A stretch of 27,503 nucleotides of DNA from a virus: positions 1 to 27,503 of IMG/VR virus record IMGVR_UViG_3300030109_004459, one strand, 5' to 3'. The notes beneath the pieces were generated by a model, which saw only the letters and a list, made by a program, of their open reading frames with translations, did not search any database and was not told the DNA's origin. Made by a program: the position numbers and the translations under genes. This document shows, in pieces, positions 1 through 15,325 of this stretch (the stretch's first letter is position 1; every line of letters begins with the position of its first letter).

Positions 1-15
1 AGTGTTGTTAATAAA

Positions 16-104
16 GCAACAGCACACACAGAGCAAACGAAACTCCACATATGAAATAGAGCAAAAGGTCCCTAACGCATTCATATGTTTGTGTGTGCTG
101 TTGC
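16..104 (-). ncRNA. Candidate structured RNA closed by a perfect 15-bp stem
   Basis: Bases 16-30 and 90-104 are a perfect 15-bp inverted repeat (GCAACAGCACACACA and its complement). A second perfect 9-bp pair lies inside it (47-55 with 80-88). Bases 31-46 form a side bulge that could itself pair GAG/CUC, so the whole could fold as a three-way junction with a 24-nt apical loop. A promoter-like site at 113-140 on the minus strand would start RNA at about 106-104, almost exactly at the first paired base. After the closing stem the minus strand reads TTTATT, a weak U-tract. No ORF or tRNA fold is seen. The pairing is seen directly; transcription and function are inferred. It could instead be a DNA site or the leader of an operon to the left of the window. 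Confidence 0.45.
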
Positions 105-262: not shown

Positions 263-290
263 TTGACAGCAGAGCATTGTGTGTTATAAT
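263..290 (+). promoter_or_regulatory. Consensus sigma-70 promoter, rightward
   Basis: TTGACA and TATAAT, both perfect, are separated by 16 bp. This is the best promoter in the window and one of the few signals on the plus strand. It points at no protein gene: an intrinsic terminator follows about 80-115 bp downstream, so its likely product is the short RNA at about 297-405. Confidence 0.8.
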
Positions 291-296
291 GTAGAT

Positions 297-405
297 ACAA
301 ATTGATTAAGTTTTTTTCTACCTTTCTTTGAAATACTTAATTGGTTTGCACTTGATATAAGACATATGAAAAGGCGTCTTTTTGCTAAATTTGAGGCGCC
401 TTTTT
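297..405 (+). ncRNA. Candidate small non-coding RNA with its own promoter and terminator
   Basis: The predicted start is about 7 nt after the consensus -10 at 285-290. The RNA would open with a 12-bp stem (300-311 with 335-346, nine Watson-Crick and three G-U pairs) closing a pyrimidine-rich 23-nt loop that contains CUACCUUUCUUU. A linker and a terminator hairpin (371-402) with five U follow. The CU-rich loop could pair with purine-rich Shine-Dalgarno sequences, so a regulator of translation is plausible. A 30-codon frame opens at ATG 366 but runs through the terminator and has no good ribosome site, so a coding role is less likely. Promoter, stem and terminator are seen; RNA expression is inferred. 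Confidence 0.6.
371..405 (+). terminator. Intrinsic terminator, probably bidirectional
   Basis: Bases 371-379 pair with 394-402 (AAGGCGTCT with AGGCGCCTT, one G-T) and are followed by T's to 405. Flanking A/T bases extend the stem. On the minus strand the same hairpin is followed by TTTT, so it could also end transcription coming from the two small genes at 635-1077. Confidence 0.7.
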
Positions 406-634
406 CACGTTTTAGACCCCAAAACAGCAGTCAAAATATGGTGAGAATGGTGTTTTAGGCTGTGCAAACGGTGAGAACACGGGAAAAATGGTTTTTTACA
501 GATTGATTACCAGAGGCCGCCTCCACCGTGTCGTACGATGCCTGTACCGTGTATTATATCACCCCGCTACACACTTCTTGCCCTGATCTACTGCGACGCA
601 AATGCTGACGCATCTCTAGGCATATCACAACCAA
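406..634. other. Non-coding gap with an 8-bp direct repeat
   Basis: This gap lies between the bidirectional terminator and the stop of the 75-aa gene. GGTGAGAA occurs at 440-447 and again at 470-477, exactly 30 bp apart, but nothing else links the copies. A minus-strand TATAAT near 550 has no matching -35 box. Short minus-strand frames are under 25 codons and lack ribosome sites. No supported gene is seen. Confidence 0.4.
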
Positions 635-1142: not shown

Positions 1143-1218
1143 CTGGCAGAAAAATGCCATAAAATGGGGGTTTTTTCAGGGTTTTCTACAACCTACGGGT
1201 GAGATCTACTGGAAAATG

Positions 1219-13779: not shown

Positions 13780-15325
13780 CTGTTCCTCCAAAATATCTTG
13801 CTATCTCAGGATGTAGATTTAGGATGTCTTCGTTGCTCAATCCCTGTTCAATCATCTCTCTCATATGTGCTACCATACCTGATGGATTGGTCATTGCATC
13901 GTGCTGGCCATCGTCTGCTATTTGGTTCTGCATCTCTTCCATCTCATCTTCATCTTTTGCAAGTAATTCAATTGTTTTCTGATCAATAATAGATTTTACA
14001 TTTGGAGTCGCTGTGGCTGAATCTCTTTGGGCACTAGCGGCTTTGTTGATTATATCCATATCAAGGTTTTTATCTCTGATATGGAAAGCCATTGGGTATT
14101 TGATTTCTCCGTCCCAGGCCTGTCCTTGCCATAGACTGAATAATCTAAATATTTGTTCTTCTGATAGTTCCAAGTTCTTTGCCTTCTCACAAAGTTTGGC
14201 ATCCAACATTAAAAATTCTGATTGCATAGCCACACCTGACATCTGTCTTGTCTCAATCGCTCTGATTGAACCCATATGTGCCATCCTGTCAATAGACTTC
14301 ACAGTCTCGTCCATAGTTTTTAGTATGGCTTCAAGATTACCACCATTGGGTTGTAGTAGGTATGGTTTTAAATTTGGATCTAGTTCTTCTGGCATATCAA
14401 TAACTGCACCTGCTCCTGCCTGTGCTGAAACTGATCTTGTTTTGACCAATGAAGGGTGGTTAGTCAAACTTACCAATTGTTCTGCTTCGCTGTATAGGTT
14501 GGCAAGGAATCTCTGACTCTGTGCCACACCTGAAATGTCTGAAACACCAATACCTCTGATTGGACCTTTGTTGGCATAACACCATACCGCTGGTACCTTG
14601 CCAAGGTTGTTTGGTCTTGTTTCAATCTGTTTCATTGGTTCTTTGACATCATCGCCTGTGTAAGAATATAATTCAATTGCATCTGGTGTCCATTTACGGA
14701 TGTAGAATTCACCCTGTCTCTGGTAAGGTCTCTCATCCTGTTCCAACAACATAAGTTCTGCTATCTCATAATGTCCGTTTGGTTGTCTGATAAACTTCCA
14801 ATTTAAAATGTTCTCTGGTGTGTAGATCTGACAGAAAGGTCTGATGCCCTGAGCCAACTCTTCTGCACGAGTGCCAACCACGGTCTCTGGTCTGTCAACC
14901 AAAACCACGCAGTGTCCATATATTGAACTCTGTACATTGACATCTCTCATAAAGGCCTCCCAACTCTGTCCTTCAAGATCAGCGTCTTTCAAGAACTGTT
15001 CTACCTCTGGTGTGTCTTCTAACCAACCAAAATCTCTTTTAGGTTGTTGTCTGTATAAGAATGCGTTGTATGTGTGAATGATTGAACGGCAGTGATTGTC
15101 TTCAGCCGCGTGTGATAATCTTGTAAGGTATTCACCTTCGTTCTCGTACTGATATCTCTTGAGGTATTGTCCTCGCTTGTATTCAGCACCTCCAAGATAA
15201 CTTCTCTTTAAAAATTTCCAATGATTGATGTATGTGTCATAGTCTTGGTGTACAGGTAATTTGATGCTGTTGCCTGTGGCGTCTGTGAATTGTGTGCCTG
15301 TCAAACCGTATATGTCTTGTGCCAT
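13742..15325 (-). CDS. Portal protein (527 aa)
   Basis: Forms the dodecameric ring at one capsid vertex through which DNA is pumped by the terminase. The clip and stem can be read from the order of segments. They are DYDTYINHWKFLKRSYLGGA with the conserved aromatic N-terminus, HTYNAFLYRQQPKRDFGWLE, the YGHCVVLVDRP strand, QIYTPENILNWKF (Y-x-P-E-x-I-x-N-W is typical of DUF4055-type portals), a central wing (GKVPAVWCYANKGPIRGIGV), and the long helix with ETRQMSGVAMQSEFLMLDAK (about residues 350-375). The C-terminus is acidic and Gln-rich. The length is usual. The ATG overlaps the terminase stop (TAATG). The next gene starts inside its 3' end. Confidence 0.88.
   Translation of the reverse strand: MAQDIYGLTGTQFTDATGNSIKLPVHQDYDTYINHWKFLKRSYLGGAEYKRGQYLKRYQYENEGEYLTRLSHAAEDNHCRSIIHTYNAFLYRQQPKRDFGWLEDTPEVEQFLKDADLEGQSWEAFMRDVNVQSSIYGHCVVLVDRPETVVGTRAEELAQGIRPFCQIYTPENILNWKFIRQPNGHYEIAELMLLEQDERPYQRQGEFYIRKWTPDAIELYSYTGDDVKEPMKQIETRPNNLGKVPAVWCYANKGPIRGIGVSDISGVAQSQRFLANLYSEAEQLVSLTNHPSLVKTRSVSAQAGAGAVIDMPEELDPNLKPYLLQPNGGNLEAILKTMDETVKSIDRMAHMGSIRAIETRQMSGVAMQSEFLMLDAKLCEKAKNLELSEEQIFRLFSLWQGQAWDGEIKYPMAFHIRDKNLDMDIINKAASAQRDSATATPNVKSIIDQKTIELLAKDEDEMEEMQNQIADDGQHDAMTNPSGMVAHMREMIEQGLSNEDILNLHPEIARYFGGTDGGVPGQEDNTQ

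Follow-up and report, generated by a model that had tools for sequence, protein, structure and literature searches.

Several small RNAs encoded by phages have known modes of action. PreS of lambda and VpdS of phage VP882 are trans-acting sRNAs that bind Hfq and have demonstrated targets, the OOP RNA of lambdoid phages is transcribed antisense to cII from its own promoter, and PAK_P4as15, antisense to an endolysin gene, occurs in one phage and is missing from a near relative (PMC12197685). Phage-encoded sRNAs are in this respect better known than was claimed in the first-pass annotation of the locus studied here, where they were called rarely described (PMC12197685). A further group, the PeSL cassettes of T4-type phages, is characterized in the work cited there, as far as the citing text relates it, as compact promoter/stem-loop units that are dense, repeated between early genes and tied to gene shuffling (cited in PMC4503421). 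In uncultured marine phages, regulatory RNAs have been little studied. Here we analyzed a window of 27,503 nt (bases 1-27503 of a virus record of 31,938 b) that carries a candidate small RNA gene at 263-405 on the plus strand.

The locus shares with small RNA genes in general a short non-coding stretch flanked by its own promoter and terminator, both of which can be read directly, and a predicted stable structure specific to the transcribed strand. Like PreS and VpdS, it would yield a short phage RNA expected to base-pair with host or phage mRNA; however, those RNAs have Hfq binding and shown targets, whereas the only Hfq feature here is a run of five U at the 3' end with no clear Hfq site, which counts against the reading that we prefer. 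As with OOP, a short transcript would run counter to the surrounding genes from its own promoter within a regulatory region, but the RNA would overlap the opposite transcript at the terminator only. It is not a cis-antisense RNA of the OOP type, since 297-405 overlaps no plausible gene and the nearest minus-strand gene ends at 635. Presence restricted to one lineage recalls PAK_P4as15, although that RNA overlaps a gene and this one does not. The unit is also, like a PeSL, a compact promoter with a stem-loop. PeSLs are oriented like their genes and the present unit is single, reversed and equipped with its own terminator, and so falls outside that class.

A terminal repeat of ~98 bases (window 1-98, corresponding to 31841-31938 of the full record, with the last two bases differing) was found, so that this record probably represents the complete genome, circular or circularly assembled, at ~31.84 kb. 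An ORF survey placed all plausible genes of the genome on the minus strand, and the earlier description of the window as coded almost wholly on that strand was right. The structural protein families comprised a lambda-J-like tail protein, distal tail protein, tape measure, major tail and tail terminator proteins, and those for the head and packaging comprised capsid, scaffold, portal and terminase. Among the proteins scanned (all except those encoded by the tail-fibre-like genes, 17248-28627, and by a few small ORFs), we recognized neither a polymerase nor an integrase nor a clear repressor. By terminase, the nearest isolates were phage DSL-LC06 and Pelagibacter phages HTVC112P, 202P, 111P and 026P (51-53% identity). 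In the coding direction, the end of the last late gene (635-862, minus) is followed by a conserved non-coding block (576-486), the reversed unit, two early promoters (229-202 and 140-113, minus) and the first small early gene (31642-31818 of the full record, minus). The early promoter at 202-229, which adjoins the unit and is divergent from it, is conserved in relatives. The block at 486-576 (minus), with the sequence ATTGATTWCCAGRGGCSKCCT, is 79% identical to that of a relative, G001, lies after the late genes wherever a relative has this junction and is possibly related to an origin or to packaging. The first early gene has a 5' leader (17-108, minus) that starts with GCAACAGCACACACA and ends in the complement of this sequence ~75 nt further on, giving a large 5' hairpin immediately downstream of the promoter at 140-113.

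The promoter of the unit is of the sigma-70 type and matches TTGACA-16-TATAAT at 12/12 positions (263-290, plus), with GG before the -35 box and TG before the -10 box; a perfect promoter had been reported here by the first-pass annotation, and this was borne out. In simulated genomes with the same first-order composition as the phage, promoters of at least 11/12 with TG arose at ~0.2 per genome and none at 12/12. The combination of such a promoter with a terminator within 200 nt was found once in the phage genome and in 0 of 60 simulated genomes. Coding-strand promoters of relatives take the recurrent form GGTTGACA-N16-TGTGYTATAAT-like, and that of the unit consists of GGTTGACA, 16 nt ending in TGTG, and a TTATAAT-like -10 region. 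Since the unit promoter is thus in the style of the group, it probably originated within the group and not from an unrelated source. A second perfect plus-strand promoter, at 14643 within the portal gene, differs in its 18-nt spacer and its lack of TG; it recurs in G001 together with the coding sequence and was taken as a chance occurrence.

The predicted small RNA is 109 nt long (297-405, plus), with a putative start 7 nt past the -10 box and a putative end after the U run. Its fold of -28.9 kcal/mol (z -4.6) was equaled by 0 of 200 shuffles. The 5' hairpin (298-348) has a 14-bp stem (298-311/335-348) with 3 G.U pairs and a pyrimidine-rich loop of 23 nt (312-334), and the 54-nt 5' part gave by itself a z of -4.6 (-4.58), again with 0 of 200 shuffles as good. 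A single-stranded, A/U-rich linker of 19 nt (349-367) is predicted between this hairpin and the intrinsic terminator (368-405), which has 13 pairs (368-380/393-405), a loop of 12 nt and a U5 end. Since this loop exceeds the limit of a simple terminator scan, the terminator was found by folding and by the scan for promoter-terminator units. The annotation had given the stem as 12 bp at 300-311/335-346, and the stem is real but longer by two pairs; the loop and the terminator that it described both stand. On the minus strand the unit folds more weakly (-15.6 kcal/mol, z -1.65), and every one of its 6 non-Watson-Crick pairs reads as G.U on the plus strand but would be A.C on the other. This strand specificity and the G.U asymmetry argue for selection on a plus-strand RNA and not on a symmetric DNA site. 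Together with the promoter and the terminator, they lend good support to the original reading of a plus-strand small RNA gene. The minus strand has a weaker mirror form of the terminator that could mark the end of the late operon.

The unit was absent at the same junction in five relatives (G001, L086, L088, L090 and G007), in all of which the conserved block, our anchor on the far side, directly abuts the early promoter; the difference in length is ~190 bp. G001 has a terminase 100% identical to that of this phage, yet its junction is without the unit. Judged by this comparison, the unit is apparently an insertion in this lineage, or else it was lost in all the others, and insertion is simpler. 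When the small genes flanking the unit were used as anchors, no relatives of them were found, which marks this as a hypervariable part of the genome. Homologues of the unit were sought by blastn in phage and plasmid collections, with only weak AT-rich noise as a result, and by exact patterns of the loop 22-mer and the stem in IMG/VR, with no match. A covariance model (R1) run over 705 kb of relatives returned only the unit itself, and the unit matched none of the Rfam covariance models. The small RNA thus appears to be lineage-specific, with no relative in the collections searched, and this absence of homologues counts against the preferred reading.

That reading, which we hold at a probability of roughly one half in its full form, is that 263-405 (plus) is an accessory small RNA gene whose product base-pairs in trans. 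Promoter, 5' hairpin and terminator would form a self-contained cassette, inserted at the late/early junction and transcribed by host RNA polymerase under its main sigma factor, probably early and strongly. The product would be a stable RNA of ~109 nt, protected by the 5' hairpin, which would expose the pyrimidine-rich loop (23 nt). This loop would most likely pair in trans with a purine-rich host or phage mRNA and lower its translation or stability. Transcription, the RNA ends, the mode of base pairing and the target are what we infer here. The narrower proposal, that the unit gives rise to a discrete short RNA, is considerably safer and we regard it as likely.

The position of the unit between the last late gene and the early promoters would also suit an insulator, in which the convergent promoter and a two-way terminator stop late-operon transcription from entering the early promoters at 229-202 and 140-113 (minus), and the terminator does fold on the minus strand too. 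However, relatives do without the unit at this same junction, the plus strand gives the better structure, and a terminator by itself needs no 14-bp 5' hairpin, so we consider an insulator rather unlikely, if the foremost of the alternatives. Somewhat less probable still is a counter-transcript or primer for the control of replication, comparable to lambda OOP or plasmid RNA I, with the block at 486-576 as part of an origin. This would agree with the large intergenic region of the circular map, flanked on one side by a conserved block, and with the lack of any recognized DNA polymerase among the scanned proteins, which suggests that host replication is probably used; but nothing marks this junction as an origin, and relatives retain the block without the unit. 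Finally, the sequence might be the leader of a 30-aa protein (366-458, plus) instead of an sRNA, given the ATG at 366 after a short leader. This is the longest ORF starting inside the unit (none reaches at least 31 aa), and its frame crosses the terminator and lacks a clear ribosome site; we therefore judge it very improbable and agree with the annotation that the stretch holds no good ORF.

The remaining alternative concerns the target. The first-pass annotation had proposed that the loop binds purine-rich ribosome sites, and this did not hold up: in duplex energy against the 39 phage gene starts, 31% of shuffled loops were as good on the mean and 25% on the best, so that what speaks for the idea is the composition of the loop; the same result weighs against the preferred reading. 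The best complementarity to the loop anywhere in the phage was 12 nt, a length reached by 11 of 200 shuffled loops and not clearly above chance. A scan of GTDB genome contigs with a 22-mer from the loop found exact matches in 22 contigs, all of Pelagibacteraceae and each at the same orthologous position at the end of livF, in antisense orientation and ~55 nt before the start of livG. Extended to the loop plus 2 stem nt (312-336), the match was perfect (25/25) in all five that were checked of the genomes with this site. The unit could accordingly be a dedicated antisense RNA that blocks or destabilizes the liv operon mRNA and silences host nutrient uptake during infection, with sister phages carrying interchangeable sRNA cassettes. 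Under a Markov model, ~1e-5 (22 nt) and 2e-7 (25 nt) matches are expected per SAR11 genome, but over the AT-rich part of GTDB a chance match of 22 nt has a probability of up to several tenths and one of 25 nt a probability of ~0.01-0.03, according to a rough extrapolation from real AT-rich phage words against 400 kb of SAR11 sequence with an assumed share of AT-rich genomes. The match does not continue into the rest of the flanking stem, and since the 22-mer was picked from the loop, the agreement of match ends with loop ends weighs little. Only 12 of 297 SAR11 genomes had the site when up to 3 mismatches were allowed, while the reversed control was found in 6, and the site lies within the coding region and not at its start. 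The G+C content of the phage (43%, with 40% at third positions) is far above the 29.6% of SAR11, which argues against a SAR11 host, and no close terminase was found in 397 SAR11 genomes or in the Alphaproteobacteria genomes searched. We therefore treat the livF match as a lead only and the antisense explanation as a distant prospect.

Across 133 sequences, five units of a promoter followed by a terminator within 200 nt were found, including that of the window and a pair in two sister phages (G001 30900-31037, equivalent to L130:10900-11037, plus; and L087:5112-5248, plus). The members of this pair, ~100 nt each with promoter, hairpins and terminator, are 78-81% identical to each other, share an invariant GGGAGTGCTAATCCGCTTTGATC and are not homologous to the unit of the window; their similarity to Rfam families (GcvB, RseX and others) was below threshold, and their conserved motif was absent from five SAR11 genomes. 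In their first stem, one G-C pair is replaced by A-U with both sides changed, and by eye the middle hairpin is perfect in each while different in sequence, although the automatic alignment does not register this stem and its pair count, from two sequences only, was not above its shuffles. The paired changes are suggestive at most of a conserved structure. The pair suggests that this phage group carries sRNA cassettes, and, with the unit of the window, it suggests that these ~32-kb marine siphovirus-like genomes, with no recognized polymerase or integrase, swap small RNA genes at the late/early junction; if so, phage RNA regulators could be searched for by position, not by sequence.

Other non-coding elements recur in the group. 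A strong hairpin (GGGGACGxC...GxCGTCCCC) that begins within a few nt of a coding-strand promoter and is followed by conserved GGCTGGCGTGGTGCCC and TAAAAATATCCAAATC was seen at L002:19200-19396 (minus; promoters at 31266 and 31396, minus, of the full record), at G001 420 (plus) and in L086 and L088, repeated in relatives; these repeats are closer to PeSL cassettes than the unit of the window is. Runs of GACGCAAA / CGCAAAAA motifs precede a coding-strand promoter in every relative seen (L002:19131-19176, minus; G001, G007, G010 and L086) and, being iteron-like, are a possible origin or regulator site. A CCCCCATTTTATGGCATTTTTCTGCC-like repeat lies just upstream of small-gene promoters (window 1146-1175, minus; G001 at ~30870 and ~31035; G010 at ~590) and may be a boundary that allows small genes to be swapped.
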